A program made the translations under genes and the position numbers. A stretch of 47,009 nt of DNA, from NCBI GenBank assembly GCA_018054895.1, contig JAGPIQ010000005.1, forward strand, positions 1 to 47,009, in the 5' to 3' direction. The first letter of the stretch is position 1, and each line of letters opens with the position of its first letter. The stretch is from Lutibacter sp. Its GTDB lineage: Bacteria; Bacteroidota; Bacteroidia; Flavobacteriales; Flavobacteriaceae. The notes beneath the pieces are model-generated. The model worked only from the letters and a program-made list of their open reading frames with translations, ran no database searches and was not told the DNA's origin. Below are positions 2,441 to 43,122 of the stretch, in pieces.

Positions 2441-2507
2441 TAAAAATAGGCATAATAGGTTTAAAAATAGGTGGACTAAAAGAGTATAAAGAAGGTGTTA
2501 ACTGGTC
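2441..2507 (-). promoter_or_regulatory. predicted promoter and operator of the PL12 gene
   Basis: On the coding strand a strong half-site GACCAGTTAACACC occupies 2507-2494. A weak partner lies 22 bp closer to the gene (2485-2472). Exactly 23 bases after that partner is TATTTTTA (2448-2441), one base off the Bacteroidota -7 consensus TAnnTTTG. The ATG is 56 bases further on. Spacing matches that at susC1, susC2, the second GH88 and the two-module T9SS gene. Function is inferred from recurrence. Confidence 0.5.
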
Positions 2508-2548
2508 TTTAATCAAGTTTATTATAATTTATGTTTTTATTAAAAGAA

Positions 2549-2583
2549 AAAGCACTTTGGGTTTAAAAAATCCAAAGTGCTTT
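2549..2583 (-). terminator. intrinsic terminator of susC1-susD1
   Basis: A perfect 12-bp inverted repeat (AAAGCACTTTGG / CCAAAGTGCTTT) with an 11-base loop is followed on the minus strand by a T-rich tail (TTTTTCTTTT when the stem's last T residues are included). It lies 65 bases after the susD1 stop and separates that operon from the PL12 gene. Confidence 0.8.
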
Positions 2584-2647
2584 AATTAATTATATACATA
2601 ATTAGGTTTTACTATTTTAGCAAAACCTCATGTATTTTTAAAACGTC

Positions 2648-7182: not shown

Positions 7183-7249
7183 CAAATAACCTTATAAATA
7201 ATCAAAAACGAAGGGAGGAATTTGGTCTATAATAGGGTAATTATTAGCC
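7183..7249 (-). promoter_or_regulatory. predicted promoter and operator of susC1-susD1
   Basis: Two direct repeats are spaced exactly 22 bp: coding-strand GGCTAATAATTACC (7249-7236) and GACCAAATTCCTCC (7227-7214). Twenty-three bases after the second repeat is GTTATTTG (7190-7183), whose TTTG is at the same distance as in the susC2 and second GH88 promoters. The ATG follows 32 bases later. These half-sites are weaker than those at susC2. Confidence 0.5.
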
Positions 7250-10594: not shown

Positions 10595-10654
10595 CAAAAA
10601 TATTTATAAATTTTATAGGTGCTTAAAGGCTCTTAAAAAGGGTGTAAACTGTTC
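10595..10654 (-). promoter_or_regulatory. predicted promoter and operator of the first GH88 gene
   Basis: A strong half-site GAACAGTTTACACC (coding strand, 10654-10641) is followed 22 bp later by GAGCCTTTAAGCAC (10632-10619). A perfect TAnnTTTG box, TATTTTTG, lies at 10602-10595, but only 16 bases after the second half-site rather than 23, so this promoter departs from the spacing of the others. The ATG is 89 bases beyond the box. Confidence 0.45.
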
Positions 10655-10720: not shown

Positions 10721-11401
10721 TTAAAGCTTTGTGATTTTTAAATTCTGAATTTTCATGTGGTTATTTACTGTTCTAATTCCAAAATACCCATTTAAATATG
10801 GATTGCTATCATTTAATTCAAAAATAACTTCGTTATCTCTACTGTATGTAACTTTATTATTTTCAACTTTTAGAGTTATTTGAATTGTAGTATTTGAAAT
10901 AATCATAAATTTTTGATCACTTAAATCGTGTTCTGGTAAAAGTGGTCTGTCAAAATTACCGTCATATCTTCTAAATCTAGTTTTGGTATTATCATGTCCT
11001 CCATAGCCAACATAATATTGCGTTAGTTCATGGTAATTGGTAAACTTACCCTGTCTTTCTTTTGAATTTTTAAAAAAATTATCAGGGTTTTTAGGATCAT
11101 TAGCCATCCAAAAACAATTTAAATCAGACACTCTATCAAAAGGACCTCCATTATCTATAACAATTACTTCATATTCAATTTTTAAAGGAGCTTTTAGTTT
11201 GTGTTTAAGCCATACGGTGCAACCTAAAGAATCTGTAATTTCCATCTCATGATTTCTAAACTCAACTTTTCCACCTTGTTGTTGTTCCACCACCCAATGT
11301 TGTTGGTTAATAGTTGAACTATTATACATTATTTTAGTTGAATTACAAGAAATAAAACATCCTAAAACTAAAAACAGAAAAACACAATTTATACGTTGCA
11401 T
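10721..11401 (-). CDS. DUF6250-like secreted lipoprotein
   Basis: A 226-residue lipoprotein (signal ending FISC, Cys19) with one all-beta domain resembling DUF6250, a concanavalin-like fold related to the YesU group in rhamnogalacturonan loci. The recognisable core is RVSDLNCFWMANDP (about 85-98) followed by YYVGYGGHDNTKTRFRRYDG (about 130-149). The function is not known to me: it may be a carbohydrate-binding protein or a lyase or hydrolase of an uncharacterised family. It starts 2 bases after the stop of the upstream sulfatase, so it is the last gene of the long sulfatase transcript. Family assignment is from pattern memory. Confidence 0.65.
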   Translation of the reverse strand: MQRINCVFLFLVLGCFISCNSTKIMYNSSTINQQHWVVEQQQGGKVEFRNHEMEITDSLGCTVWLKHKLKAPLKIEYEVIVIDNGGPFDRVSDLNCFWMANDPKNPDNFFKNSKERQGKFTNYHELTQYYVGYGGHDNTKTRFRRYDGNFDRPLLPEHDLSDQKFMIISNTTIQITLKVENNKVTYSRDNEVIFELNDSNPYLNGYFGIRTVNNHMKIQNLKITKL

Positions 11402-11403
11402 AC

Positions 11404-12828
11404 TTAATATGGTTTCTCAAACAATTCTGTTGATGATATTTTGCTGGTACTTGGTAATATAATTTTTCTTAAAAAAGCATCATTTGTTGTTTTACACCAG
11501 GTGTAAAGCTTTAAACGGAAACCATCTACTATTTTTAAATTAGATGTATCCAAAGCCAAATTAACTAATTCGTAAGGATCGTTTTGTAAATCAAACAATT
11601 GCTCTCTATTTCCCCCCCAATTATATAACACATATTTATATCTTTTAGCTATAATTGCTCTTCCTGCAGTTCCATACGCCTGCTCACCATCAAATTTAGT
11701 TTCAACAACAATAAAGTCTCTTTCTAAATCATTTGTTTTGCTTTCAAAAATTGGTTTTAAATTTTCCCCAGTTAAATAGGTTGATTTTGCAATATTCGCA
11801 TACGCACAAATTGTAGGATACAAATCTAACCCATTACTAACCAAGGTGTTATTTTGTTGGTTTTTTTTAATTTCTCCTTCAAAACTAGCAATGAATGGTA
11901 CTTTAATTGATTCCTGAATTAATGCTGTTTTTTGATTCCATCCGTGTGAAGCATTTCCATCTCCATGGTCACTTGTAAAAATAATTAGGGTGTTTTTTCG
12001 AAGGTCTAAATCATCAATTGCATTTAAAATTTTTCCAATTTCAGCATCTACTTTTTCAACCAATCTATAATAAGTGTACCTATATTGACGCCAATCTTCA
12101 TCTGTATAATTAGCTGTTGGATATACTTTTTTATTGATGCTTTGCTCAAATTGAAGCACTTCAGGAAAATCATCCGATTGTTTATGATTTATAGGTAATT
12201 CTGGTGTAAATTTAGTAGCTACAGGCTCAATGTTTCCGTAAGGTAATGGTTCATTTCGTGCCCATTCACAAATGTTATGGGGATTGTCAAAACTTACCGT
12301 TAGAAAGAACGGATTTTTCGAATCTTTCTTCGATTTTAGGTATGTTATACTTTTTTCAGCCAAGCCAACATCTCCCATTGGAGCAATCATTTCAAATCCA
12401 TTTCCTTCAACCATACTAGCTTCATGAGCGTGCCATTTACCGCCATAGGCACAACTGTACCCTGCTTGCTGTAACTTTTTAGCTAAAATATATTCTTTTT
12501 CAACTGAGTTCATAACATTATCACCCTTTTCATTTGAATTTACACCAATAGTATGTGGCATTTTACCCGTAAAAATACTTGACCGTGACGGTGTACATAA
12601 TGGAAAAGTGACATACGAATTATTAAAAAGCATTCCGCTTTCTGCCAACTGATCTAAATTTGGTGTTTTTAAATTTTTGTTTCCTACAATACTTAACGCC
12701 TCTGCTTGATGCTGATCTGTCATTATTAAAATAATGTTGGGTTTAGCAACCGTTTGAGCATTCAATGTAAAAAAAGCACTTATTACAATACTTAAAAACA
12801 GTCCTATTATTTTAACTTTATTTTTCAT
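11404..12828 (-). CDS. sulfatase, S1 family (intact member of the tandem pair)
   Basis: Formylglycine sulfatase of 474 residues with a cleavable signal peptide (about 1-24, ending LNAQ), so soluble periplasmic or exported. The active-site motif CTPSR is at Cys78-Arg82; metal and sulfate ligands appear in MTDQHQAEA (Asp38), GKWHAHE and FTSDHGDGNASHGW. It is a close paralogue of the broken gene at 16119-17524, sharing DEDWRQYRYTYYRLVEKVD and the C-terminal YKYVLYNWG block. Here the region after YNWG contains a run of seven G and remains in frame. It is followed after 2 bases by the DUF6250-like gene. Subfamily not assigned. Confidence 0.92.
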   Translation of the reverse strand: MKNKVKIIGLFLSIVISAFFTLNAQTVAKPNIILIMTDQHQAEALSIVGNKNLKTPNLDQLAESGMLFNNSYVTFPLCTPSRSSIFTGKMPHTIGVNSNEKGDNVMNSVEKEYILAKKLQQAGYSCAYGGKWHAHEASMVEGNGFEMIAPMGDVGLAEKSITYLKSKKDSKNPFFLTVSFDNPHNICEWARNEPLPYGNIEPVATKFTPELPINHKQSDDFPEVLQFEQSINKKVYPTANYTDEDWRQYRYTYYRLVEKVDAEIGKILNAIDDLDLRKNTLIIFTSDHGDGNASHGWNQKTALIQESIKVPFIASFEGEIKKNQQNNTLVSNGLDLYPTICAYANIAKSTYLTGENLKPIFESKTNDLERDFIVVETKFDGEQAYGTAGRAIIAKRYKYVLYNWGGNREQLFDLQNDPYELVNLALDTSNLKIVDGFRLKLYTWCKTTNDAFLRKIILPSTSKISSTELFEKPY

Positions 12829-12944
12829 TTTTTGAAGTTTATTTATTTTTTTGATTCAAAGAAAATTGAAGGTGTTTTTTCAACCATAATTACAACATCA
12901 TTTTATAAAAAATAACTAGGGTATTTAATGGATTCATTTTTAAA

Positions 12945-14390
12945 TCACTTCACTTTCTTTTCTCTTACATATTGACTATTTAAAATAGCTTTATTTGCGT
13001 TTACAGATTTTTGAAGCTTATGAAGCCTACGTTTAAGATCAACTACTTTTTTTGGATATTTTGCTGCAAGATTATTTTGTTCAGAAATATCTTCGGATAA
13101 ATTGTATAATTCCACAGTTTCAGTTTCGTAAAACTCAATTAATTTCCAATTTTGGTATCTAATTGCAGCGCCAGGAGTCCAACCACTTCCATGATAATGA
13201 GGATAATGCCAAAACAATTCCTTTCTACCAATTTTCCCATTTTTAACCAGTATTTCTGATAAATCGACACCATTAATAGTCGATTTATCAGCAGGTTTAA
13301 TATTTGCTAGAGAAAGTATTGTTGGTAAAAAATCATATCCTATAACGGGCTCATTGCTAATGCTACTTTGTTCTTTAAAATTAGCTGGTTTTATTAATAA
13401 TGGCACTCTAATTCCGCCTTCATATAACCATCCTTTTCCAGCTCTTAGAGGCAATATAGATGTTGGTGCTATAAAATCATATTCAGGTTCCAGCGTTGAA
13501 AGTCCGCCATTATCTGAAGTGAAAATAATGGTTGTATTATCATACAAGCCTTCTTTTTTTAATTTTGCAATTAACTTTCCAATATTTTTATCTAAAGCGT
13601 ATAGCATAGACGCATATTCTGGATTTCTTTGCGCCATTTTAGTCATAGCAGTTCCTTCTTTTCTTTCGAAAACTTTTAAACTATCTAAATACTTTAATTT
13701 CTGTTTAAATTTATCAACATAGAGTGTATTTGCCTGAATTGGCGTGTGTACCGTATAATATGATAGCAATAAGAAAAAAGGTTTATTATGAATGGTATCT
13801 AAAAAATTGATTGATTCTTGCGTTAATCTATCTGTTAAGTATTCTCCTTTTTTCCCGTCTTTTAAATATGGATTTTTATACGGTGAATAATATCCTCCAG
13901 GAGGTTGCCCTTTTTCATAGCCGCCAATATTTGTTTGAAAACCTTGGTCTGTTGGCAAAAAACCTGTATCACCTAAATGCCACTTACCAACAAAAAAAGT
14001 ACTGTAACCATTTTCATTTAAAATTTCTGGCAAAGTAACTTCAGAAAGTGGTAATTCATTTAAATCTTTTGCGCCTATTAATTTTCTGTTTTTTGGATCA
14101 TCTCCGGGTAACCAATCTGTAATATTTACACTAGCTGGGTGTTTTCCAGTTAAAATTGATGCTCTTGACGGCGAACAAATGGATGCTGAAGCATAGGCAT
14201 TTGTAAATTGTATACTGTTTTTACTAAAATTATCAATATTTGGCGTTTCGTAAAATGTACTTCCGGAATAACCAAGGTCTGTCCAACCCAAATCGTCCAC
14301 CAAAATAAAGACAAAGTTTTGTTTTTTTGGTGCTTCTTTACAAGAAATAAAGAGTACACTTAAAACGATAAAAATAAATTTTTTAAACAT
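12945..14390 (-). CDS. sulfatase, S1 family, arylsulfatase A-like lipoprotein
   Basis: Formylglycine sulfatase, 481 residues. A lipoprotein signal ends in LFISC (Cys17). Metal ligands are in LVDDLGWTDLG (Asp32, Asp33), the modified residue is in CSPSR (Cys72-Arg76), and GKWHLGD and FTSDNGG follow in the usual order. The DDLGW start and the C-terminal WKLIEFYE and LYNLSEDISEQNNLA blocks resemble arylsulfatase A and GalNAc-6-sulfatase-like enzymes; that resemblance does not fix the target sulfate. It lies between two other sulfatases with gaps of about 75 and 115 bases and is probably co-transcribed with them. Confidence 0.92.
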   Translation of the reverse strand: MFKKFIFIVLSVLFISCKEAPKKQNFVFILVDDLGWTDLGYSGSTFYETPNIDNFSKNSIQFTNAYASASICSPSRASILTGKHPASVNITDWLPGDDPKNRKLIGAKDLNELPLSEVTLPEILNENGYSTFFVGKWHLGDTGFLPTDQGFQTNIGGYEKGQPPGGYYSPYKNPYLKDGKKGEYLTDRLTQESINFLDTIHNKPFFLLLSYYTVHTPIQANTLYVDKFKQKLKYLDSLKVFERKEGTAMTKMAQRNPEYASMLYALDKNIGKLIAKLKKEGLYDNTTIIFTSDNGGLSTLEPEYDFIAPTSILPLRAGKGWLYEGGIRVPLLIKPANFKEQSSISNEPVIGYDFLPTILSLANIKPADKSTINGVDLSEILVKNGKIGRKELFWHYPHYHGSGWTPGAAIRYQNWKLIEFYETETVELYNLSEDISEQNNLAAKYPKKVVDLKRRLHKLQKSVNANKAILNSQYVREKKVK

Positions 14391-14467
14391 GATTACGTTT
14401 TATTTAAGTAATTTTAGACTTCGCTAGAACTCACATTTTAGCTATTAAATAATTATCCTGAATTTAT

Positions 14468-16075
14468 TTAATTCAAATTCACTTCATGCTGATTTTTAAA
14501 ACCATCTTTCTTTAAATTTGTCAATTTTTCTTTTAAATCTTTCACTCTTTCAGGAAATTTAGCTGCCAAATTATTTTGTTCATTTGGATCATTTTTTATG
14601 TGATATAATTGTGGTTCTAATTGAAAACCAGTTTCAATAATTGGTCCCCAAGGAACTAACTTTGGACCATCTAAAGGCTCAATATATTTCCATTCGCCTT
14701 CCAAATAAGATACTGGTCCCATAAAACTTTCTTGTACTATTGAAGTTCTTCCTACGGTATTATCACCTAAAAAAACATCTAACGCATTTTGACTATCAAT
14801 AACATCTTCTTTTACTTTTTCTATTCCTACTAAAGCAGCTAAAGAACTTAAAAAATCTACCTGACTTACCAATGCATTAGAAACTGTTCCTCTCCCTTTT
14901 CCATTTGGCCAACGAATAATTAATGGTATTTTACTACCGCCATTATACGCACTATATTTTCCACCACGCAAGCCTCCTGTAGGTTTATGGTTTCCTAATA
15001 ATTCTCTTGCCTGATCTTGGTAACCATCATCTACAACTGGACCATTATCACTTGAAAAAATAACGATGGTATTCTCAAATAAATGCTGTTCTTTAAGCGT
15101 ATTTACAATTTCATTTACTGTCCAATCTAACTGTAAAATAACATCGCCCCTTGGTCCCAAACCACTTTTACCTTGAAACATTTTATTTGCAATTCTCGGT
15201 ACGTGAATATCATGTGTAGAAAGCAATAAAAAGAAGGGTTTATCTTTATTCGCATTGATGAATTTTTTAGATTTATCAACCAATTCCATCGGTATAGTTT
15301 CATCATCCCATAAAGCAGCTTTTCCACCCGTCATATACCCAATTCTACTAACTCCATTTACAATTGTCATATTATGTCCTTGTGAAGGCTTCATGGTTAA
15401 CAATTCTGGGTTTTCCTTTCCTGTAGGCCAATCACCAACTTTTTCTTTATAATTTACTGTAACAGGATCATTCGGATCTAAATTTACAATATGATGGTTT
15501 TCAACAAAAACACAGGGAACTCTATCTCCTGTTGCAGGTATTAAATATGAATAATCAAAACCGATTTCTAAAGGACCGGGACTAATTTTTCCGTTCCAAT
15601 CTGGGCCATTTTCATCACCTAATCCTAAATGCCATTTTCCAACAATTCCTGTTTTATAACCTGCAGTTTGTAGAATTTTTGGTAAGGTTGTTCTTTTAGT
15701 GTCTATTAAAAGTGCTTCATCACCTGTTGCAACACCTGTCCCTTCTTTTCTCCAAGCATAATCACCTGTCAATAAAGAATATCTAGATGGTGTACACGTA
15801 GCAGCTGTAGAATATGCATTGTTAAACAGAATACCTTCTTCTGCCAAGGCATCAATTGCAGGAGTTTGTACGCCCGTACCGCCGTAACTACTGATGTCGC
15901 CATAGCCCAAATCATCAGTATAAATGATGATGATATTTGGTTTTTGTGTTTCTTCGGAAGTCATTGCAGTTTCTTCATTTTCAGTACTTTTGTTTTTACA
16001 GCCTACAGCCATAAAAACAAATAGAACGAATCCTAATAGCATGTAATTTTTAAAATTTGTCATTTGTATCATCAT
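14468..16075 (-). CDS. sulfatase, S1 family, arylsulfatase-type lipoprotein
   Basis: Formylglycine sulfatase of 535 residues, lipoprotein (signal ending AVGC, Cys26). Metal ligands are in YTDDLGYGD (Asp54, Asp55), the active-site motif is CTPSR (Cys94-Arg98), and GKWHLG and FSSDNGP are present. A central insertion with ATGDRVPCVFVENHHIVNLD (about 186-205) marks a distinct arylsulfatase subgroup that, from memory, includes GalNAc-6-O-sulfatases of chondroitin loci (possibly S1_15); I hold that loosely. Candidate starts Met1, Met2 and Met5 all precede the lipoprotein signal. It is one of four consecutive sulfatase genes. Confidence 0.92.
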   Translation of the reverse strand: MMIQMTNFKNYMLLGFVLFVFMAVGCKNKSTENEETAMTSEETQKPNIIIIYTDDLGYGDISSYGGTGVQTPAIDALAEEGILFNNAYSTAATCTPSRYSLLTGDYAWRKEGTGVATGDEALLIDTKRTTLPKILQTAGYKTGIVGKWHLGLGDENGPDWNGKISPGPLEIGFDYSYLIPATGDRVPCVFVENHHIVNLDPNDPVTVNYKEKVGDWPTGKENPELLTMKPSQGHNMTIVNGVSRIGYMTGGKAALWDDETIPMELVDKSKKFINANKDKPFFLLLSTHDIHVPRIANKMFQGKSGLGPRGDVILQLDWTVNEIVNTLKEQHLFENTIVIFSSDNGPVVDDGYQDQARELLGNHKPTGGLRGGKYSAYNGGSKIPLIIRWPNGKGRGTVSNALVSQVDFLSSLAALVGIEKVKEDVIDSQNALDVFLGDNTVGRTSIVQESFMGPVSYLEGEWKYIEPLDGPKLVPWGPIIETGFQLEPQLYHIKNDPNEQNNLAAKFPERVKDLKEKLTNLKKDGFKNQHEVNLN

Positions 16076-16118
16076 TTTATGGTTTTTTGTATTTTTTTAT
16101 AGCATCCGTCTACCGTCT

Positions 16119-17524
16119 TTAATAAAATTTATCAGATAATGCATCAGAAGTTAACTTGCCATGGGTTGGCAATACTAACTTTTTCTTAAATCTGATATCG
16201 TTTGCTTGTTTGCTCCAATCTAATAATTTCTGACGGTAATCATCAATATTTTGTAATTGACCTTTGGAATTTATCAAATTATACATTTCATACGGATCGG
16301 TTTCTGAATCAAAAAACTGTTCTCGGTTTTCCCCCAATTGTATAGAACATATTTATATTTATTTGTAACCAAAGCGCGACCCATGGTGCCATAGGCATTC
16401 TTACCTTCAAATTTTGTTTCAACTACTACAAAATTGTGTGGTTTATTTTCTTTTTCAATGATTTTTTTAATGCTTTTCCCTAATAATTCCTTTGGAATAT
16501 CAATTTTCACAAAATCACAAATGGTTGGAAATAAATCCAACCCACTGGAAATTAAACTGTTATTTATTTTTTCTTCGAAAGTATTGATTCCTTTATAATT
16601 TATAATGAATGGTACTTTGATGCTTTCCTGAAACAAGGCTGTTTTTTGGTTCCAACCGTGCGATGCATTCCCATCGCCATGATCGCTCGTAAATATGATG
16701 ACCGTATTATCCCGTAGGCCTAAATTATCGATGGCATCTAATATTTTACCGATTTCTTTATCTACTTTTTCTACCAATCTATAATAAGTATAGCGGTATT
16801 GACGCCAATCTTCATCGGTATAATTTTGGGTAGGATATACTTTTAAATCTATATTTTGTTCAATTTGTAAAGCTTCAAGAAACGTGGGTGATATTTTAAA
16901 ATTTACAGGCAATTCTGGCGTTTCATTTAAAGAAACTGGCGTGATATTTCCATAAGGCAGAGGTTCATTTCTTGCCCATTCGCAAATATTGTGTGGATTA
17001 TCAAAAGAAGCTACCAAAAAGAACGGTAGCGGATTATCTTTTCTCGATTTTAAATAATCAATGCAATTTTCAGCTAAAACCATATCGCCAAAACCCGAGA
17101 TGGTTTTAAAACCATTTCCATCCACCATACCTGCTTCATGAGCTCGCCACTTACCACCATAAGCAGCATCATAACCTGCGGCATTTAAAACATGACCCAA
17201 ACCTTTTTCTTTATCGGCTGGTTTTAACTTATTATCTCCTTCTCCATTGAAATTTACACCCAGTGCATTAGGCATTTTACCTGTAAACATACTGGAATGC
17301 GACGGACTGCATAGCGGAAAGGTAACATACGCATTGTCAAAACGGATGCCTGTTTTGGCTAATTTATCTAAATTTGGAGTGCTTAAATTTAAATTTCCAG
17401 CGATGCTTAAGGCTTCTGCTTGATGCTGGTCGGTCATCATTAAAACGATGTTGGGTCTCTTTTCTTGTGCATTTAGGCTTACTAAAGGCAATAAAAACAT
17501 TAAAATCAAAAACTGGTTTTTCAT
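16119..17524 (-). pseudogene. degenerate S1 sulfatase: frameshift plus lost active-site residues
   Basis: Paralogue of the sulfatase at 11404-12828, interrupted by a frameshift. The main frame runs from ATG 17524 to about 16330, then shifts. The natural continuation, GENREQFFDSETDPYEMYNL, is in another frame down to 16119. The break is a run of five G on the coding strand (C's at 16331-16335) where six would keep frame; adding one base gives 1407 nt, about 468 residues, like the 474-residue paralogue. Independently, the modification motif reads CSPSH (72-76) instead of CxPxR, and the sulfate-binding GKWH reads GKWR. Metal-site motif FTSDHGDGNASHGW is intact. Loss of three separate features suggests a non-functional or pseudo-sulfatase; a sequencing slip could explain only the frameshift. 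Confidence 0.85.
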
Positions 17525-17547
17525 GTGTTTAAAAAATAATTTTATTA

Positions 17548-19716: not shown

Positions 19717-19777
19717 ATTTTTTTATAATTAATATCTATGAATTAATGAATAAACCAAAATTGAAATTTGTAAAATG

Positions 19778-21202: not shown

Positions 21203-21208
21203 GATTTT

Positions 21209-21703
21209 TTATTTTTTAAGAACTCGTGTAGAATGTAATTGTTCAAGCTTCCAAGTATTATTTTCTTTAATTGCAACGGCACTTTCTAACCAATGTGCTT
21301 CCCGAAGGGTATCATTTCCTTTTACCCAGTTCGCATAATTATTGTATGCTATCCAAATGCTATTTTTATTATGTTTTGTTTGAATATACTCAAATTTATT
21401 AATTCTTTTAACCTCATTTTTATCAACTTGTCTTTCTTTCATATAGTTGACAATGGAATTATTATTCCATACTGCTCCGTTTTCTAGTAGCATAAAATCT
21501 GATGTGTAATGATTTAAAATTTTTGTTTCATCTAAATCCGACCAAATATCTTGAAATGAATTTGAAATTAAATTCTTTACAGCATCAACATCAGCTTGTT
21601 TTTCAATCTCTGTAATTTCCATATGATCGCGAGTATTTGATTTGATTTTAGTATTACAAGAACACAAAACACTAATAATTAATAAAATGATAATTTTTTT
21701 CAT
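21209..21703 (-). CDS. NTF2-like (SnoaL/DUF4440-type) lipoprotein
   Basis: A 164-residue protein with a lipoprotein signal ending VLCSC (Cys16) and one NTF2-like cone-shaped domain. Features are an N-terminal helix-rich part (DVDAVKNLISNSFQDIWSDL), HYTSDFMLLENG (about 66-77) and a C-terminal sheet with HWLESAVAIKENNTWKLEQL. This pattern is typical of SnoaL/DUF4440 proteins, which range from small isomerases to non-catalytic binders; no catalytic assignment is possible. It ends 6 bases before the GH29 fucosidase, implying co-expression. A role in handling a sugar product is speculation. Confidence 0.7.
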   Translation of the reverse strand: MKKIIILLIISVLCSCNTKIKSNTRDHMEITEIEKQADVDAVKNLISNSFQDIWSDLDETKILNHYTSDFMLLENGAVWNNNSIVNYMKERQVDKNEVKRINKFEYIQTKHNKNSIWIAYNNYANWVKGNDTLREAHWLESAVAIKENNTWKLEQLHSTRVLKK

Positions 21704-21778
21704 TTGTCATTAAAAGATAAATTCTCAATAATTACTTATTAAAATAACTGCTGAGGATTAATAATTTTTAATAAAGTT

Positions 21779-23408: not shown

Positions 23409-23828
23409 CTAATATTTTTTCAGATTTTTCTTTATCCTCTTTTTATAGTTTCCTAATTCAACTTTAGTTAATATATTTATGGGAGCTTTTTTTGACATTA
23501 GCTTTAATTCATTTTCTGTAAATCCCATTATTATTTCACTGGCAATACGTTCATATCCTTTTGGACTTGTTCGAATATTTCCAATAGTAATTATGTTATT
23601 TTCGTCAACTCTAAAACAAGAAGCTATTCTAATAGTAGTCCCATTCTCGGTATTTAATTGCTCTGATAATAAGTCAATCTTTATACCTAATTCAGATTCA
23701 TTTATTATGCGCTCAAAATTTACTTTTTTATTAAGTTCAAAAAAGGGATTCATGATTTCAGGAAGAATCTCTTGAGAAAATGATTGATATCCTACTAAAA
23801 TTAAGAAAGTCAGTATTATTTTTCTCAT
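23409..23828 (-). CDS. small exported protein of unknown function (139 residues)
   Basis: A 139-residue protein with a signal peptide (MRKIILTFLILVGYQSFSQ, cleavage near 19), then a soluble domain with predicted alternating helices and strands and a very basic C-terminus (YKKRIKKNLKKY). I do not recognise the family. The start codon overlaps the stop of the upstream GH29 gene (ATGA, 23828-23825), so translation is probably coupled to that fucosidase. It is the last gene of its unit. Confidence 0.6.
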   Translation of the reverse strand: MRKIILTFLILVGYQSFSQEILPEIMNPFFELNKKVNFERIINESELGIKIDLLSEQLNTENGTTIRIASCFRVDENNIITIGNIRTSPKGYERIASEIIMGFTENELKLMSKKAPINILTKVELGNYKKRIKKNLKKY

Positions 23829-25759: not shown

Positions 25760-25810
25760 TCGTTGTGTTTTTTTATTGAATTGTAACCCTTATTATAAAT
25801 TTATCAATGG

Positions 25811-27418: not shown

Positions 27419-27458
27419 TATTGTATGAATTTTTTACTTTTTGTTTTTTCTAAGATTG

Positions 27459-27541
27459 TTTGTCATTTCGACGTTAGGATATATTTCACACTTTTGAGGA
27501 TTCATATATTATCTTATTTCCACTAACGTCGACATGACAAA
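27459..27541. repeat. 83-bp inverted repeat in an intra-operon gap
   Basis: Arms of 19 bp (left 27459-27477, TTTGTCATTTCGACGTTAG; right 27523-27541) are complementary with one mismatch and are separated by 45 bases. GTCATTTCGACG-type palindromes are common intergenic elements in Flavobacteriia from general knowledge. It lies between the PL8 and beta-helix genes, where it could stabilise or partly terminate the transcript. No transposase is associated. Confidence 0.6.
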
Positions 27542-27566
27542 ACGCTCTCTTTTAAATTCTCTAATT

Positions 27567-30500
27567 TCAGATTTTATTCAAATTAAATTCTCTAGGCAAT
27601 CCATTAATACACTCTAAAGTGATTATGGTGTTTGCACCCGAATTATCAGTAGCTTTTATAAAATCGTTCGCATCCGCATTCCATTTTCCTTCCAACGTAA
27701 TTTTAAGTTCCACAGCTTGGCTATAATTTCTAAACCTTCCTTTTTGATATTCAGGGAAATTTAAATCTGGTTGTACAGCGCTAATTGTTAAAATTTTATC
27801 GCTTTTTTGATTCACCATTACAAAAGCTGGTTTCGAAACTTCTTTTAAAATACCACTTTCTAAATTTTTATTCGCTTCAAACACTACATAACCTGTTGTA
27901 CTGGTTTCTTTATTTAAAACAATATGTGCAATACTGTCTGCTCTTTTAATAGCAAACGATTCATCATTTTTAACTGTTTTTCCAAAATTCTTTTGAGCGT
28001 CTTCACTTAAAAACGGATAAATAACATATTGGTACGATGCATTTTTTGGAGCCATACCATGGTCTATCCAAGCAGTTGCATAATCGCCTTCGGTTTCCTT
28101 AACACCTTTTGCTGCATTATCAATTTGTCCCGTATTTACGGAATATTTATTGTGATATGAATTCTGATGTGAATTTTTTATCTGAACTGGTGTATTTGAT
28201 AGCATATAATATCCATTCCCATAAGGATCTATTAACCAACTACCTGATTTTTCATCTTGTTTTAAAGTTGTTTCATAAGGAAACTTTTTAATAGTTTCTG
28301 AAGATGTATATATAGGTGTTTTAGTGTCTTTTAAAAACGTTTGAAAAATATTGGTTTGTGTTGGGTTTTTCTCGTCAATACTAGAAATATCCGTACCAAT
28401 ACAAATTAATTTGTTTCCAAAAGAAAACACCGATTTTTTAGCATAAAGCCTTCCAGGGAAACCTACGTTTGTTTCTCTTTCGTCTCCATCGGCATTAGAT
28501 CCTTTACCTTCGTTCAAAATCATTCCAAAAATACCATTGTCCTCTAAAGTAGTCGTTCCAGCAAAACTTTCGTTTGAACGGAACATAAGCAATGGCACTT
28601 TAGGTTCTAATTCTTTTAATGGCAAATAAACGATAGTAGTCGCTGGATAGCGGTTCCAATCCCAACCTTCTTGTTTAAATCCACTTCCTTCTTCACCTTT
28701 AGCGTTTAATAATTGAACCGATCCGTTTGCGGGATACCTTCCATATCTATTTGCCGTAACATAAATTTCGGAAGCCCAAACATATTTGCTATAGCCTTTT
28801 ATGAGCGCTGCCCAATCATTGCGTCTGTGTACCGCAGTAGCACCATAAGGAAAGGTATAATAGCCCGATAGATTTTCTTTTTGTATGTCATTTACTTGGG
28901 TAAAAAGAGTCGTATTTACCATATCATCTTTACCCCAAAGTCTTAAATAAGCACCCGCAACCTCTGAATCTATGCTTGAAGTGCCTTCAGGATTTCCTGA
29001 ATATGCCATATCTAAAAATTGTCCCTTTAAATTATCTATACCATTACCTTCTAAAGGATGGCGCCCTGCATTACCAAAGCCCCAATTGAATGATTGGCTA
29101 TAAATTCGACTCGATAAAAAAGAATTTTTAAAATTTTTATGCCCTTCGGTACCAATACGGAAACGTGTTCCTGATAGTGTCTTAATTATTTTTGGGACAC
29201 TACCAAACGCTCCAAGACCATATGCTGGATAATGCCCATTATGATGCCATGCGGTTCCATCTACCTTAAAGCCCCATTCTTCATTTTGTTGTGCCAAAGT
29301 AATGGATATGTAGTTTGAATACGCCAATAACATAGCAGCTTGCGTTTCTTGCTTTTCAAATAAAAAGATAAGCATTAAATGGTAGTAAGCTTGCGTGTTT
29401 AAATAGTCAATATTTACATGAAAATTAGCTGGATCATCTAAAAGCATCCCTTCATTGAACAGCCAATGCAAACTCGCTCCAACCTCATTTAACATACCGT
29501 TGTCATACAGGAATTGGCGCATAATAAAAAACGCCTCAGTAATTTGCCTAACGTTATAGCCAATATGATGCCTAGTACCGCCATTGGATCCTGCTTGCCA
29601 TCCCTGATCCAGAAAATATTTTGTTCCAGTTAGGAACATCGCTTTCATTTCCAATTCTTCAGCAGCGTTTCCTCTTTTATGAAAGCTGGCTATTTTTTTC
29701 ATTACCTTTCCTAAATCCTGAATATCATTAAATTTTCTAGGGCCTAGTTGAGCCTCATCATAATAATCTTGATGTTCTTTAAACGTTAAAGGAGGTCCTA
29801 AAACGGTGTTACCGTTATTGGTTATATTTAATTTTTGAAAATCTTCGCGTACGGAATCTATATACAGTTTGTATTTTTTTTGAATTTCTAAATCTTGATC
29901 TATAATGGATTCAAATCGTTTTAAATCTGCTCTTATAGCCATAGAAACTGGCCCTGGTTGCAGATTCTTAATGCGGTCATAATTTGCCATAGTTGGTAAC
30001 CAGTGGTCTTCCCCTTTTGGTTGATTCGCTTTTATAAAGGGTACTATTTCATCTGGATATGAATGTCTATCGTCTTGGTATTGCGAATAAATAATATCAT
30101 CAAAAAATAATTTCCCACTTTTTGCGGTGGTGCTTATTTTAAAATAATCATAATTTATTGAAGCTAATTTTTTTGGAGCATTGCCTTCCATTTCATAAAA
30201 TGGCACCCAAATGGTTCTCCAACCTGTAAACGACAATGGCACATCAAAATAAACTTCTTTAACGCCGTTTTTTTCGTAAGAAATAGTTATTTTTTCATTT
30301 TGAGCTGTTTCATTATAGATTGCCATTTGCAAGGTTGGACTTGCAGGAAAAAAATCGCCATAATCTAGCGGACTTTCTTTAATTGGCAAAATTCTAAAAT
30401 TTGACGTTCCTATAGCGCTTTCTCCATTCCATTCCCATTGTAAAGACGATTTACCATATTTTCTGTGGGCCTCGCTTAATGCTATTTTACCGTTCGTAAC

Positions 30501-30668
30501 TTTATAAGCAGTTAAGCCTTTATTAGACTCGAAAGATTCTACCCCAGGTTTGTAATCTTGTTGTGCATAACTCACATTTATAATTAATGCAGTTAAAAAA
30601 AAGACGCTCTTTATTTTATTTGAAAATTTGATTAATTTATTCATAATCTTAATTATTTTATTTAACAA
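27567..30668 (-). CDS. PL8 polysaccharide lyase, chondroitinase ABC-like
   Basis: Glycosaminoglycan endolyase of 1033 residues with a signal peptide ending VSYAQQ (about 36). The N-terminal beta-sandwich (about 40-200) resembles the galactose-binding-like domain of chondroitinase ABC. The helical toroid runs about 215-560, and two C-terminal beta domains follow. Catalytic His476 and Tyr483 lie in GTAWHHNGHYPAY with the seven-residue spacing of Proteus vulgaris chondroitinase ABC I (His501, Tyr508); Arg536 (NAGRHPLE) matches Arg560. RHHIGY near 366-371 fits the region important for dermatan-type substrates. Neither lipobox nor T9SS domain, so it is probably periplasmic. It follows GH88 by 123 bases, a natural lyase-hydrolase pair. 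Confidence 0.93.
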   Translation of the reverse strand: MLNKIIKIMNKLIKFSNKIKSVFFLTALIINVSYAQQDYKPGVESFESNKGLTAYKVTNGKIALSEAHRKYGKSSLQWEWNGESAIGTSNFRILPIKESPLDYGDFFPASPTLQMAIYNETAQNEKITISYEKNGVKEVYFDVPLSFTGWRTIWVPFYEMEGNAPKKLASINYDYFKISTTAKSGKLFFDDIIYSQYQDDRHSYPDEIVPFIKANQPKGEDHWLPTMANYDRIKNLQPGPVSMAIRADLKRFESIIDQDLEIQKKYKLYIDSVREDFQKLNITNNGNTVLGPPLTFKEHQDYYDEAQLGPRKFNDIQDLGKVMKKIASFHKRGNAAEELEMKAMFLTGTKYFLDQGWQAGSNGGTRHHIGYNVRQITEAFFIMRQFLYDNGMLNEVGASLHWLFNEGMLLDDPANFHVNIDYLNTQAYYHLMLIFLFEKQETQAAMLLAYSNYISITLAQQNEEWGFKVDGTAWHHNGHYPAYGLGAFGSVPKIIKTLSGTRFRIGTEGHKNFKNSFLSSRIYSQSFNWGFGNAGRHPLEGNGIDNLKGQFLDMAYSGNPEGTSSIDSEVAGAYLRLWGKDDMVNTTLFTQVNDIQKENLSGYYTFPYGATAVHRRNDWAALIKGYSKYVWASEIYVTANRYGRYPANGSVQLLNAKGEEGSGFKQEGWDWNRYPATTIVYLPLKELEPKVPLLMFRSNESFAGTTTLEDNGIFGMILNEGKGSNADGDERETNVGFPGRLYAKKSVFSFGNKLICIGTDISSIDEKNPTQTNIFQTFLKDTKTPIYTSSETIKKFPYETTLKQDEKSGSWLIDPYGNGYYMLSNTPVQIKNSHQNSYHNKYSVNTGQIDNAAKGVKETEGDYATAWIDHGMAPKNASYQYVIYPFLSEDAQKNFGKTVKNDESFAIKRADSIAHIVLNKETSTTGYVVFEANKNLESGILKEVSKPAFVMVNQKSDKILTISAVQPDLNFPEYQKGRFRNYSQAVELKITLEGKWNADANDFIKATDNSGANTIITLECINGLPREFNLNKI

Positions 30669-30791
30669 ATGGTTGCAATATTATATGACAAATTGCTTGC
30701 GGTTATTTAAAAAATATACTTTACTAAAGTCATCAATTAGTTTATTAATACTTAAAGTATATGCTTTCTAAATTTCATTGTATTCTTTAAT

Positions 30792-32057
30792 TTATTTTTC
30801 TTGCATTTTTTTAAGTCTAGCTAAAGCTTCAATATAATAATAGTCTGCATAAATTAAAGCGACATCTATTTCATGTCCTAATGATTTTGCTCCAGTAGAA
30901 TGTAACAAAAATGAATCTGCTTTCCCAACTCCAGAATAATTACTTGAACCTAAAGATTTCAACATTTTTATGGCGGCATTGTAATAACGTTCTTGATCTG
31001 CTTTATTTTCAACTAAAGTACTTAAATCTAATAATGCTGAAGCTACCACTGCTGCTGCCGAAGCATCTTTTTCTTCTTTTGGATCATTGGCAACATCAAA
31101 ATCCCAACAAGGCACCATATCTTCTGGTAATAATGATAAATATTTATCTGTTATTTTCTGAGCAAAATGTAAAAACTTTTTATCTTTTGTTTCTTTATAA
31201 ACCAAGGTATAACCATACACGCCCCATGCTTGACCTCTAGACCAACGGCTATCATCTGCAAATCCTTGTTTGGTGTGTCTGTTTAAAATATTTCCATTAA
31301 TGGAATCATATTCTATAACATGCCATGATGTTAAATCTTCTCTGAAATGATTTTTCATAGTGGTTTCAGCATGCTTAACGGCAATGTCGTAATATTTTTG
31401 ATCACCACCATTTTTGGCTGCCCAAAACAACAATTCCAAATTAAGCATATTATCTATAATAGTAATATGTTGTTGCCAGCGAGGGTGCATTTTATTAGAC
31501 CATGATCTAATAGTACCAACTTTAGGATTAAACCTTGACGCCAGTGATTGTGCTGATGCCAACAAAACATCTTTATATTCCTTTTTTTGTCCTATTTCAT
31601 AACCAAGTCCGTAAGCTGGAAACATCATAAAACCAATATCATGGTGTTCTGTAATATTTTTAAAATCTTCAAAAACTTCGGTGCGTTTAATGGCTTCATC
31701 TTTCCATTTTTTATTACCCGTAACATCATAAGCATACCATAAAATACCTGGATAAAAACCAGAAGTCCATATTAATTTATTGTTGGCTACTTCCTTCCAT
31801 TCAGTTGCGTTTGTTTCAATTAAACGTGGGTGTTTTGTAAGATCTGTTAACTTAGGCACCGCAATTTCTAATTGATTTTCACAATCGTCTAGTTGCTTTT
31901 GTAAATCAATATTTACGCTATTTTCTGTTACAACCTCTGCTACTGGTTCTTTTTTTGAATTTTTACAACTAGCAGTAAAAATTAAAAGACCTGCAAAAAA
32001 AAGACTTTTAAAAATGAACCGTTGTTTTTTGAATGAATTTAAATTATTTCGCATCAT
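30792..32057 (-). CDS. GH88 unsaturated glucuronyl hydrolase (second copy)
   Basis: Unsaturated uronyl hydrolase of 421 residues, a lipoprotein (signal ending FTASC, Cys31; the start could also be Met2). Catalytic aspartates are visible in EHHDIGF (Asp140) and IIDNMLN (Asp202), and the family segments DDSRWSRGQAWGVYGYT and DKKFLHFAQKITDKY are present. It leads the unit GH88-PL8-beta-helix-GH29-small protein and carries an operator-like repeat at its promoter, like the other GH88. It has an N-terminal linker of about 35 residues with acidic and basic stretches that the first copy lacks. Confidence 0.93.
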   Translation of the reverse strand: MMRNNLNSFKKQRFIFKSLFFAGLLIFTASCKNSKKEPVAEVVTENSVNIDLQKQLDDCENQLEIAVPKLTDLTKHPRLIETNATEWKEVANNKLIWTSGFYPGILWYAYDVTGNKKWKDEAIKRTEVFEDFKNITEHHDIGFMMFPAYGLGYEIGQKKEYKDVLLASAQSLASRFNPKVGTIRSWSNKMHPRWQQHITIIDNMLNLELLFWAAKNGGDQKYYDIAVKHAETTMKNHFREDLTSWHVIEYDSINGNILNRHTKQGFADDSRWSRGQAWGVYGYTLVYKETKDKKFLHFAQKITDKYLSLLPEDMVPCWDFDVANDPKEEKDASAAAVVASALLDLSTLVENKADQERYYNAAIKMLKSLGSSNYSGVGKADSFLLHSTGAKSLGHEIDVALIYADYYYIEALARLKKMQEK

Positions 32058-32120: not shown

Positions 32121-32187
32121 CAAAGTAATGACTAAATTATTTAGATTTAAGCGGTGTATCCGTTCTAAGGAAAGGGGGTAATTAGCC
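32121..32187 (-). promoter_or_regulatory. predicted promoter and operator of the second GH88 unit
   Basis: Direct repeats spaced 22 bp: coding-strand GGCTAATTACCCCC (32187-32174) and GAACGGATACACC (32165-32153). TTACTTTG lies at 32128-32121, with its TTTG at the same distance from the repeat as in the susC1 and susC2 promoters. The ATG is 63 bases further. This element and the terminator at 32399-32429 account for most recognisable signals in the 409-base gap. Confidence 0.5.
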
Positions 32188-33802: not shown

Positions 33803-33869
33803 TAATATTAGTAATAAGAACTGTTATTAATGTGGGGTTAACTGTTCTAACAGCGGGGGTATTTTGTTC
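33803..33869 (-). promoter_or_regulatory. predicted promoter and operator of the two-module T9SS gene
   Basis: The clearest repeat pair in the window: coding-strand GAACAAAATACCCC (33869-33856) and GAACAGTTAACCCC (33847-33834), exactly 22 bp apart with identical outer bases. TAATATTA lies at 33810-33803, 23 bases after the second repeat, in the same place as the -7 boxes of the other promoters, with a weaker match to TAnnTTTG. The ATG is 46 bases further. Confidence 0.55.
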
Positions 33870-39829: not shown

Positions 39830-42800
39830 TTAAAATGAAACATTTAGACCAACACTGAATGTTCTAGCTTTTGGATAAGCTGAAAAATCAATACCTGGTG
39901 TAATTAATGAGTTTGCTACTGATACCTCTGGGTCAAAACCTGAATAATCTGACCAAGTGATTAAATTTTGTCCTGATAAAATCAATTCAAAACTGTTCAA
40001 CCTTAATTTCTCTATCACCTCTTTAGAAAATCTATAAGAGAAATTAACTGTTTTTAATCTTACATACGAACCATCTTCTATAATTCTAGAAGAGACGTCT
40101 TCAAAACCTTGACCACCTGCTCTATGCATGGTTGTATTTTGGTTATCTATAGACCATCTATTAAGTGTTGTTGCCAATTGGTTTTGACCGCTATTTTCCA
40201 TATTCTCCAATACCAAACGGTTGGCATTTAAGATATCATTTCCATAAGACCATTGTAAAAACGTACTTAATTGGAAGTTTTTATATGTAAACGTGTTTCC
40301 AAAACCACCAAAGTGTTTTGGTAAAGCATTACCAATTATGGTTTTATCACCTCCTGCTATTTTTCCATCACCATCCAAGTCCTTAAACTTTTCATCACCT
40401 GGTTGGTGGCTAGCTCTGTAACTAGATATCCCTGCACGTAAGGTATGTGCCGAAGCGTTCGCATCGTAATTCACAAAATCAGCTGGTTGATATACACCAT
40501 CAGATACATACCCAAACATATTACCTAAAGGCTGCCCTTCTTCTACAATAAATTGGTTGGTTGCCAACCTTTGGTAGTATTGTCCTTTACCAAAAATAGG
40601 TACCCCTTTCGTTATTTTCTCAACAGTATTTTGATTGAAAGAAATATTAAAATCTGAAGTCCAACTAAAGTTTTTATTTTTAATATTAATAGTGTTTAAA
40701 CTGATTTCCATACCTTTATTACTTACTTCTCCTGTATTCTCCCAAATGGTTTCAAACCCTTGTGATGGAGCAGCCTGAGCGTCTAAAAGAAGATCTTTGG
40801 TGTTTTTTTGATATACCTCAACCAATAGAGACAAACGGTCTTTAAACAAGCCCATATCTAAACCAACATTGTACTGTTCTGTAGTTTCCCAAAATAAATT
40901 TGGGTTGGCTCCATAATCTGTAGGACGTTGCCCAGATATTGTTGTACCTCCAAAAAAGTAACTTGCATCATTATCTACTAAAATATCAAGTTTTGCATTA
41001 CCCGGAATTCTATCATTTCCTGTTTTACCATAACCAGCCTTGACCTTTAACTGAGAGAACAGATCTAATTTTTTAATAAAACCTTCTTTATCTGCGTTCC
41101 AAGATACGGCTGCCGATGGGAAATAACCAATATTATTTTTTGTTGGGAACGCTGAAGAACCATCACGTCTTAAAGAAGCTGTAAATAAATACTTTCCTTT
41201 ATAACCATAATTAAATCTACCTAGTAAAGAGAAAATACTTGAATCTTCAGTATCATACCTATCATTATCGTCTTTTAAAGTTCCACCGTCTAATGCATTA
41301 ATACCTAAAGGTTCCAAATATAAAGGGATGTCTTTAGCTGAAAAACTTGACACTTCACTTCCTCTAAGATTTAAAGTAACTCCTAACAATCCGTCAAAAG
41401 AATGGTCGTTTACTTTCTTTTTGTAAGTTAAAGTATTTACTGTAGAAAAATTATTTCTTTGTTGCTTGTATAACGTACCATTGATACCATCTACTTTGCT
41501 TATTAACCTTCCATAAACCGTTTTACTGTTCATAAAAGTTCCTCTTGTTACAAACTGACGATTAAAACTTGCTTTGGTCTCTATAGTAAAGTCTGAATTT
41601 ACTTTATATTTTAACCCTAAATTTGCAATAAATTGATCGTTTTCGGTTTTTCTATATTCATTTTCTAAAGACACTATAGGATGCCAAACAACAACATTTA
41701 ATCCATCTAAATCTTCACTTACCTGAGCTAAAGGATCATAACCTTCTGGATAGTCAACAAATTTATTGGCTACATTATTATACGTTAATAAACTTCTCAA
41801 AAATGAATATTGCCCAGTTCCTGTTGTACTAAGACCTTCTTGTGTGTAATTGGTATAAATTACATCAATAGTCGCGTCTAACTTATCATTAATTTTATGA
41901 TTTACGGTCATTCTTCCGTTTAATCTATTATATACTGAATTTGCTAAAGACCCCTCATCTTCCACTGCGTTTAACGAGGCGTTAATTCTTGTTTTATCGC
42001 CCCCACTTGATATATTTAGTTTATGGGTTTTTGAATAAGCTGTTCTGAAAGCTTCATCTTGCCAATCTCTACCTTTTACATCTTTATAATCTTCAACACC
42101 ACCTTGCAACACACCGTAACCAAGATTTTCATCAAAAACAGCATAATACCTTGATGCGGTGGAGTTATAATTAATTTCTTCTGATAATTTTAAGAAATCA
42201 TAAGGTTCTAACACATCTAATGTTTTTGTAACATTACTAATGTCCAAACGTGTTTCATAAGAAATTCTTGTTTTTCCAGATTTGGCACGTTTTGATGTAA
42301 TGATAATAACACCGTTTGCCCCACGAACACCGTAAATAGCTGTTGCCGAAGCATCTTTTAAAACAGTCATAGATTCGATATCTGATGGATCAATCATACT
42401 AGGTTCAAAATTTTCCATAATGAAACCATCCATAACATATAAAGGTGAGTTATCTCCATTAATAGTATTACCCCCTCTAATAACAATAGTTGCTGCAGCT
42501 CCAGGCTGACCACTACCACCACTTACTTGCACCCCTGCAACACGTCCTGCTAAGGCTTGGTCAAAATTGGCAACAGGCGCTTCTGTTAATTTTTCCATCT
42601 TCACCGTAGCTACAGATCCTGTTACATCTTTTCTTTGTACTGTACCATACCCAATAATAACCATTTCGTCTAACTGATTAACATCTGGTACTAATTTTAC
42701 ATTTATGGCAGCTTGCCCCTTTACTTCTTTAGAAATTGTTTTGTACCCAAGGTAACTAAATGATAGTGTACCACTTGCGCTAACTTGGATAGTATAATTA

Positions 42801-43012
42801 CCATCAAAATCTGAAGTTACTCCATTTTTTGTTCCTGTTTCTGAAATATTTACACCTGGTAATGGTGACCCTATTTCATCTGTTACTACACCTTTTACAG
42901 TTTTAGCTTGTGCGTAAATTGTACTATTACACAAACTTGTAAAAAACAGCATCGCAAAAACAATTCTGAGTAGTGTTTGTTTTGTTAAATTTGATTTGAT
43001 TTGATTTTTCAT
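39830..43012 (-). CDS. SusC/RagA-like TonB-dependent transporter (second pair)
   Basis: Outer-membrane importer of 1060 residues. After the signal peptide (ending TIYAQ, about 35) comes a carboxypeptidase-D-like domain (KGVVTDEIGSPLPGVNISE, about 40-58). The plug follows (VIIGYGTVQRKDVTGSVATV, then VIRGGNTINGDN and YGVRGANGVIIITSKRA), and then the barrel, ending TFSVGLNVSF. It is the first gene after the hybrid regulator and heads the susC2-susD2-DUF5017 operon. Its promoter has one of the best operator pairs and a perfect TAnnTTTG box 43 bases before the ATG. Confidence 0.95.
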   Translation of the reverse strand: MKNQIKSNLTKQTLLRIVFAMLFFTSLCNSTIYAQAKTVKGVVTDEIGSPLPGVNISETGTKNGVTSDFDGNYTIQVSASGTLSFSYLGYKTISKEVKGQAAINVKLVPDVNQLDEMVIIGYGTVQRKDVTGSVATVKMEKLTEAPVANFDQALAGRVAGVQVSGGSGQPGAAATIVIRGGNTINGDNSPLYVMDGFIMENFEPSMIDPSDIESMTVLKDASATAIYGVRGANGVIIITSKRAKSGKTRISYETRLDISNVTKTLDVLEPYDFLKLSEEINYNSTASRYYAVFDENLGYGVLQGGVEDYKDVKGRDWQDEAFRTAYSKTHKLNISSGGDKTRINASLNAVEDEGSLANSVYNRLNGRMTVNHKINDKLDATIDVIYTNYTQEGLSTTGTGQYSFLRSLLTYNNVANKFVDYPEGYDPLAQVSEDLDGLNVVVWHPIVSLENEYRKTENDQFIANLGLKYKVNSDFTIETKASFNRQFVTRGTFMNSKTVYGRLISKVDGINGTLYKQQRNNFSTVNTLTYKKKVNDHSFDGLLGVTLNLRGSEVSSFSAKDIPLYLEPLGINALDGGTLKDDNDRYDTEDSSIFSLLGRFNYGYKGKYLFTASLRRDGSSAFPTKNNIGYFPSAAVSWNADKEGFIKKLDLFSQLKVKAGYGKTGNDRIPGNAKLDILVDNDASYFFGGTTISGQRPTDYGANPNLFWETTEQYNVGLDMGLFKDRLSLLVEVYQKNTKDLLLDAQAAPSQGFETIWENTGEVSNKGMEISLNTINIKNKNFSWTSDFNISFNQNTVEKITKGVPIFGKGQYYQRLATNQFIVEEGQPLGNMFGYVSDGVYQPADFVNYDANASAHTLRAGISSYRASHQPGDEKFKDLDGDGKIAGGDKTIIGNALPKHFGGFGNTFTYKNFQLSTFLQWSYGNDILNANRLVLENMENSGQNQLATTLNRWSIDNQNTTMHRAGGQGFEDVSSRIIEDGSYVRLKTVNFSYRFSKEVIEKLRLNSFELILSGQNLITWSDYSGFDPEVSVANSLITPGIDFSAYPKARTFSVGLNVSF

Positions 43013-43055
43013 CTGTAATGTTTATAGGTTCATTAATTTATTAATTTATGATACT

Positions 43056-43122
43056 CAAAAATACATCCATTTTTCAAAAACCATAGGGGGGTGAAAACTC
43101 AATATAGAGGTGTGAATTGCTC
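43056..43122 (-). promoter_or_regulatory. predicted promoter and operator of the susC2 operon
   Basis: Direct repeats: coding-strand GAGCAATTCACACC (43122-43109) and GAGTTTTCACCCCC (43100-43087), exactly 22 bp apart. TATTTTTG, a perfect match to the Bacteroidota -7 consensus, lies at 43063-43056, 23 bases after the second repeat. The rest of the 310-base gap to the regulator (43123-43322) is AT-rich with no other recognised signal. Confidence 0.6.

Follow-up and report, generated by a model that had tools for sequence, protein, structure and literature searches.

Six transcription units of a polysaccharide utilization locus (PUL) in Lutibacter sp. are each preceded by a pair of direct half-sites spaced 22 bp apart, and these pairs very probably act as operators for the hybrid two-component system (HTCS) regulator encoded alongside, which carries an AraC-type helix-turn-helix (HTH) domain. 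The locus occupies the 47,009-nt stretch analysed here, called the window, which is an entire contig (JAGPIQ010000005.1, here C148) of a 3.0-Mb genome assembled in 250 contigs. The first-pass annotation had read the direct repeats as operators of an AraC-type HTCS whose targets form a PUL regulon. This reading is supported by conservation across species, by the way the motif tracks the identity of the HTH domain, by a register relative to the -7 promoter box, and by the lack of any match of at least 20 bits in congeneric genomes. The six pairs lie at the coordinates originally given, in the right 22-bp register (half-site start to half-site start), all on the minus strand and with the distal half-site 99–149 bp 5' of the start codon. 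Ranks refer to the 24 gene upstream regions of the window, scored with a matrix from other species described below.

2471..2507, minus strand, paired operator before PL12 (half-site starts 2507 and 2485), weak, rank 5 of 24
7213..7249, minus strand, paired operator before susC1, weak, rank 6 of 24
10618..10654, minus strand, paired operator before the GH88-1/sulfatase unit, rank 2 of 24
32151..32187, minus strand, paired operator before GH88-2 and its long downstream run, rank 4 of 24
33833..33869, minus strand, paired operator before the two-module protein with a type IX secretion system (T9SS) tail, rank 1 of 24 and also 1 of 93,944 positions
43086..43122, minus strand, paired operator before susC2, rank 3 of 24

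The half-site consensus first given for these pairs, GANCANTTNACMCC, is too tight. It occurs exactly in four of the 12 half-sites (2507, 10654, 33847, and 43122), while the other eight fit 5–9 of its 11 specified positions. Similarly, the statement that the outer GAN triplets are 22 bp apart in all six pairs is literally right for three and fails for the rest. Nine of the 12 half-sites start with GA, the exceptions being the PL12 proximal half-site (ACT) and the susC1 and GH88-2 distal half-sites (GGC). Across 17 sites from this and other genomes, the strongest letters are G at position 1, C at position 4, and C at positions 11–15, and the half-site is better described as G-A-N-C-N6 followed by a run of C at positions 11–15. 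The information per column in these 17 sites is 0.89 and 0.71 bits in the two half-sites, 0.53 in the -7 region, 0.31 in the spacer, and 0.24 in the gap. On its own, the half-site is no more frequent in the window than expected (18 occurrences with up to two mismatches, 18.1 expected); only the pair is informative, and the half-site search has been dropped as evidence. The exact half-site occurs five times in the 3.0-Mb genome, four times in the window and once within an open reading frame (C77:5159).

One argument against chance comes from a matrix built solely from the promoters that follow HTCS orthologues in four other species. With this four-site matrix, the six claimed promoters take ranks 1–6 of the 24 upstream regions, an outcome with an arithmetic probability of 1 in 134,596 under random ranks, and among the 93,944 scored positions of the window the claimed sites take ranks 1, 2, 3, 4, 5, and 9. 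The spacing of 22 is the best of all spacings between 14 and 33, with a mean pair score over the six units of 15.2 compared with 7.3 at 21 and 5.8 at 23, and the other 18 upstream regions average -8.4 at this spacing. As single sites, only the top two exceed the best match of all 20 shuffled windows, and the other four fall within the shuffled range. A profile of 11 sites from outside the window, applied to the window alone with filters off, again places the six claimed sites at ranks 1–6, with the PL12 site at 10.0 bits. The paired motif is real as a set.

Orthologues of the HTCS that are 58–65% identical have been found in Mariniflexile maritimum, Flavivirga sp. 57AJ16, and the metagenome-assembled genomes (MAGs) NORP150 and NORP270, and in each of these four genomes the DNA 3' of the HTCS gene contains two GAAC-like half-sites 22 bp apart. 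When a matrix built from the window was applied to four contigs of three other genomes, 10 of 11 orthologous upstream regions fell within the top 2% relative to 162 other upstream regions, and seven of them outscored all 162. The conserved ten comprise three susC2, three GH88-2, one each of susC1, GH88-1, and the two-module protein, and the gene that follows the HTCS. Overall, each of the six gene classes has a relative preceded by the pair in one or more of the four other genomes. It scores 10.6 bits upstream of the susC1 orthologue of Mariniflexile, 28.3 bits at the GH88-1 orthologue (genome G043, contig C82), and 20.7 bits at the Flavivirga orthologue of the two-module protein. GH88-2 orthologue sites have been found in three genomes, and the susC2 site is also kept at orthologues in three genomes, with the promoter after the HTCS paired as well in two MAG contigs.

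Some units with the pair in these relatives extend beyond the gene content of the window. PL12 relatives preceded by the pair are present in NORP150 (52% identical, score 13.2) and NORP270 (51%, 12.7), and downstream of the one in NORP270 lie genes for a pfkB kinase, a KDPG aldolase-family protein, and an MFS transporter. A Flavivirga unit of kduI, a kduD-like short-chain dehydrogenase, and a DUF4861 protein also has a pair upstream (14.1). The kduI-kduD and kinase/aldolase units would act on the uronate moiety of the disaccharide.

The regulator to which these sites are assigned is encoded next to susC2, and one of the paired sites lies directly between the two genes.

43323..46727, minus strand, HTCS regulator, with the Pfam domain order Reg_prop sensor, Y_Y_Y, HisKA, HATPase, receiver, AraC-type HTH_18

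Sensor, histidine kinase, receiver, and AraC-type HTH are thus found in a single chain, as the HTCS class demands. The N-terminus is incomplete on the contig, the four orthologues being 1368–1392 residues long. Several stops occur in the HTCS frame just 5' of the listed start (window positions 46728–47009), near the contig end, and the incomplete frame is likely due to the contig end or to an assembly problem. A SHIP motif is present at residues 949–952. In Bacteroides, an S/CHIP motif in the receiver, paired with D and K residues of the HTH, is reported to accompany a contact between the two domains that blocks DNA binding until phosphorylation (PMC11253607).

The relation between motif and DNA-binding domain has been examined at 70 HTCS loci with the window matrix, of which 60 were scored after 10 loci without an HTH match had been dropped. 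All four loci with an HTH identity of 57–74%, together with the locus of the window itself, score 17.9–29.7. On the other hand, none of the 55 loci with an identity of 49% or less reaches 17.9, and the best of them scores 15.0.

The Bacteroidota sigma-A promoter carries the -7 element TAnnTTTG (PMC9723704, PMC7366714), and an octamer of this type had been placed exactly 23 bases after the proximal half-site in five of the six units. The octamers are present at that place and agree with 4–6 of the six consensus letters, as listed below.

2441..2448, minus strand, -7-like octamer TATTTTTA of PL12, 5 of 6 letters of TAnnTTTG, offset 59 from the distal half-site start
7183..7190, minus strand, -7-like octamer GTTATTTG of susC1, 4 of 6
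32121..32128, minus strand, -7-like octamer TTACTTTG of GH88-2, 5 of 6, with an identical octamer in the Flavivirga orthologue
33803..33810, minus strand, -7-like octamer TAATATTA of the two-module protein, 4 of 6
43056..43063, minus strand, -7-like octamer TATTTTTG of susC2, 6 of 6

The sixth unit, GH88-1, has a poor octamer at the same place (3 of 6). The box starts 22–23 nt past the proximal half-site, and the register, counted from the distal start, peaks at offset 59 for the window set of six and at 58–59 for ten orthologue sites; none of 2000 rotations reaches the observed value in either set. The same is seen in five sites picked with a matrix of the half-sites alone (kduI, two PL12, C62, and Mariniflexile 20302), where the best octamer among offsets 57–61 lies at 58 or 59 in all five. 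Of three further sites, C92 and L174 agree with the register and L176 does not; these are not independent because the model that found them already includes the -7 region. In Flavobacterium psychrophilum the -7 octamer spans -12 to -5 (PMC9723704). With the octamer so placed, the proximal half-site would span roughly -49 to -35, the distal one -71 to -57. The octamer stands at a nearly constant place past the proximal half-site, which fits a sigma-A promoter, and the area adjoining the -33 TTTG element of such promoters is taken by the proximal half-site.

Scoring of the rest of the genome with the paired motif, which the first-pass annotation had suggested, has been carried out with sequence profiles. 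With a 17-site profile and 150 candidates scored, the six window sites, which were part of the training set, score 25.7–33.5 bits, the untrained site C92:3245 scores 23.3, and no further candidate exceeds 15.0. With the 11-site profile from outside the window, C92 scores 26.0 bits (E 2.9e-5) and three window sites score 21.5, 20.5, and 17.2. A 236.6-kb sample of the same genome contains a single pair of at least 14 bits (C62:3649), whereas the 47-kb window holds the six pairs used for training. Among 24 congeneric genomes, with 150 candidates scored in each, the 17-site profile gives no match of at least 20 bits. The weak congeneric matches in G018 and G011 lie close to HTCS matches. A match of 18.3 bits at G042:C49 was rejected, there being no recognisable catabolic unit downstream.

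The C92 site is probably a seventh member of the regulon in this genome.

Contig C92, L161:3243-3309, seventh site, before an operon of a nucleotidyltransferase, an N-acetylhexosamine 1-kinase-like protein, and a GalE-like epimerase

The solved relatives of the kinase are N-acetylhexosamine 1-kinases (best E 4e-71), the octamer of the site, TAGCTTTG, is a perfect -7 match, and the operon could plausibly process the amino sugar. However, the four other genomes all have an orthologous nucleotidyltransferase-kinase operon that lacks a pair of this type upstream, and in each a LacI-type regulator gene (49–92% identical to the copy in G043) is divergent from this N-acetylhexosamine-kinase operon.

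L172:8142-9185 (NORP270), divergent LacI-type gene
L170:7059-8102, divergent LacI-type gene
L121:10483-11505, divergent LacI-type gene
L171:9914-10945, divergent LacI-type gene

A GTGTTCTCGAGCACA-like inverted repeat lies upstream at L170. Amino-sugar salvage seems to be regulated differently from lineage to lineage, and because the pair is missing and the LacI-type gene is present in the orthologues, the C92 site would be either a lineage-specific link or a chance match. The C62 site (L106:3649, minus strand) is a near-perfect direct repeat, GCACGATTATTACCC / GAGCGATTATTACCC, 22 bp apart, which scores 23.0 bits by the half-site matrix. It precedes a T9SS leucine-rich repeat protein in another PUL with a GH29, a sulfatase, and two SusC-sized genes. 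This site is kept as possible and may belong to another HTCS.

Several observations weigh against assigning the pairs to the adjacent HTCS or soften the tests above. The four training sites of the other-species matrix were chosen by eye with the claim known. The 11-site profile test is partly circular because six of its 11 sites had been found with the window matrix, and the four-site matrix is the cleaner of the two. The PL12 and susC1 sites are weak and less certain when taken singly. With the 11-site profile on the whole genome, susC2 (14.1) and susC1 (12.7) lie amid the background, the best of which is 15.4, and the PL12 site is absent from the 21 matches. The region upstream of the PL12 gene in Mariniflexile was searched and has no site, the gene sitting inside the long run after GH88-2. 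The profile searches scored only 150 candidates per genome, which in this genome is 150 of 4251 first-look candidates, and the C62 site is unlisted by the 17-site model even with filters off. One weak match each, at 17.3–19.5 bits, is found in eight of the 24 congeneric genomes. In the HTH comparison, 11 of the 55 low-identity loci beat all eight of their own shuffles, about six being expected, and 18 of the 55 had short flanks with 1–3 upstream regions each.

The alternative that deserves most attention, although it is unlikely, is that the pairs are real operators that serve a different HTCS or AraC-type protein encoded in this genome, and that the adjacent HTCS acts at other sites. The genome holds 24 matches to the HTCS query, and a sister look-alike of the GAGCAAAT..CACC type with the same geometry is found some 1 kb away from an HTCS match of the congeneric genome G018 (L174, G018:C1:2309855), with GAGCAAATAGCACC / GAGCAAATTTTACACC 22 bp apart and TAATTTTA at offset 59. 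Yet the presence of the site tracks the HTH of the adjacent HTCS across species, one site lies right between this gene and susC2, and the 24 congeneric genomes, which have 16–37 HTCS matches each and no close orthologue, contain no match of 20 bits. A recent duplication of promoters within the cluster, or shared intergenic ancestry, could also produce similar sequences that bind nothing, and duplicated gene types are indeed present (two GH88, three PL8, and two SusCD). This explanation is disfavoured and has very little likelihood, as conservation is strongest in the half-sites and the -7 region and falls to the low spacer and gap values given above, and the sites are found upstream of genes of unrelated types and again in other genomes. 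Equally improbable is a chance pattern selected by eye in AT-rich intergenic DNA. The lone half-site consensus is no commoner than in shuffles, and four of the claimed sites have scores inside the best-match range of shuffled windows, but the ranking by the other-species matrix, the spacing peak, and the -7 register refute chance for the set.

With the adjacent HTCS as the binding protein, the following mechanism can be proposed. The periplasmic sensor would meet a glycan oligosaccharide, most likely an unsaturated product of chondroitin/hyaluronan type, and the kinase dimer would phosphorylate its own receiver, which would release two AraC-type DNA-binding domains. Bound head-to-tail, these domains would occupy one DNA face at two half-sites of roughly GANC-N6-CCCCC with a 22-bp spacing. 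Of the two, the proximal half-site would end near -35 of a sigma-A promoter, with the -7 box starting 22–23 nt further on, and from this placement we propose that contact of the activator with RNA polymerase replaces the -33 element. Six units would be switched on: susC1D1, susC2D2 (perhaps with the following PL8), GH88-1 with its sulfatase, the GH88-2 lyase/sulfatase/fucosidase run, the two-module protein, and PL12. In this scheme the conserved pairs, their spacing, the -7 register, and the co-occurrence with the HTH type are computed directly, and we infer the identity of the binding protein, the ligand, the activation, the operon extents, and the polymerase contact.

The first-pass annotation knew of no published motif of this form for an HTCS, which is not borne out. 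For all 16 Bacteroides HTCSs with a predictable motif, direct repeats spaced 21 bp on average have been described and interpreted as dimers on one DNA face, 'two helix turns' apart (Ravcheev et al. 2013, PMC3878776). The individual repeat layouts in that work include 16+5, 12+9, and 14+6 bp, and the 16 include HTCS_Hya/BT3334, for chondroitin sulfate and hyaluronan. As in those operators, the half-sites here are direct, about two turns apart, and placed before SusCD and enzyme units, with an AraC-type HTCS beside the cluster, and as in the HTCS_Hya regulon, lyases and sulfatases are included. By the criteria used for those systems, the present set shows direct half-sites at 22 bp that extend to the orthologue promoters, conserved PUL upstream regions, and a motif that follows HTH similarity. 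The differences are the spacing of 22 bp, where the published average is 21 (21 in two of the layouts spelled out and 20 in the third), the flavobacterial host, and the explicit -7 register, and the likeness described here is one of architecture. The main text of PMC3878776 does not use the words 'transcription start' or 'promoter element', and its passages cited here give no distance to a -7 box. For BT0366, predicted HTCS sites and -7 boxes are drawn together in a supplementary figure (PMC5061871). The HTCSs BT4124 and BT4663 of Bacteroides thetaiotaomicron have been studied by gel shifts at susCD promoters with predicted sites (PMC11253607). The regulator described here resembles them in its receiver and HTH_18 with an S/CHIP motif; their ligands and promoters are different, and their binding comes from gel shifts whereas the present sites are predicted from sequence. 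A search of the open-access literature, with subscription papers and supplements outside its scope, found no HTCS motif for flavobacteria. The architecture has been known since 2013, and the additions are the flavobacterial motif and regulon, the C92 site, the uronate-catabolism sites in relatives, and the explicit -7 register.

These additions provide a specific, cross-species-checked operator for a marine flavobacterial PUL of glycosaminoglycan type, and the near-constant distance to the -7 box is a testable activator geometry. The motif also predicts members beyond the cluster (amino-sugar salvage in this genome, and kduI-kduD and a KDG-type kinase/aldolase in relatives) that are missed by gene neighbourhood alone. 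A bolder generalization, which we hold tentatively and with some doubt, is that all Bacteroidota HTCS promoters carry half-sites 21–22 bp apart and a -7 octamer 22–23 nt past the proximal one, that only the letters vary with the HTH, and that the regulon in this genome reaches the N-acetylhexosamine salvage operon. If so, such a promoter grammar could read the operator and distant targets of each HTCS from genome sequence alone, and uptake, depolymerisation, and amino-sugar salvage would be under one glycan sensor.

A lag analysis of 23 susC-like promoters in the 70 HTCS loci gives a mean of 8.4 at lag 21 compared with 6.0 in shuffles, and at lag 22 the mean of 5.6 is below the 6.2 of the shuffles, yet 13% of promoters exceed the shuffle 95th percentile. 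This result is only suggestive, and the top entries include high-GC, coding-like sequence. The susC-like promoters of L035, L054, L016, and L017 carry a sister repeat of the GAAC..TATAATTTAT type (GAACTATAATTTATCA / GAATAATAATTTATCA, 21 bp apart), and these repeats are predicted to be those of another HTCS subgroup with its own half-site.

The large genes of the window are on the minus strand and include PL12, susD1, susC1, sulfatases, two GH88, three PL8, and two GH29 fucosidases, together with DUF4955, DUF6250, T9SS-tailed proteins, DUF5017, susD2, susC2, and the HTCS (domains by Pfam).

10721..32057, minus strand, co-directional run from GH88-2 to DUF6250, with GH88, PL8, DUF4955, GH29, sulfatases, PL8, and DUF6250 (Pfam)

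This run is probably read from the GH88-2 operator. None of the other gene upstream regions within it scores above -2.8 with the four-site matrix, and a comparable run lies 3' of the GH88-2 site in Mariniflexile. Because of the PL8, GH88, and sulfatase content, the target of the cluster would be a glycan of chondroitin/hyaluronan type, perhaps fucosylated. The top NCBIfam name for the gene at 17548–19716 is chondroitinase-AC, with a score under the family cut-off. The DUF6250 (10721–11401) and DUF4955 (25811–27418) proteins of the regulon are of unknown function; related proteins occur in the clusters of Mariniflexile and NORP270, and both families are candidates for new glycan-active functions.

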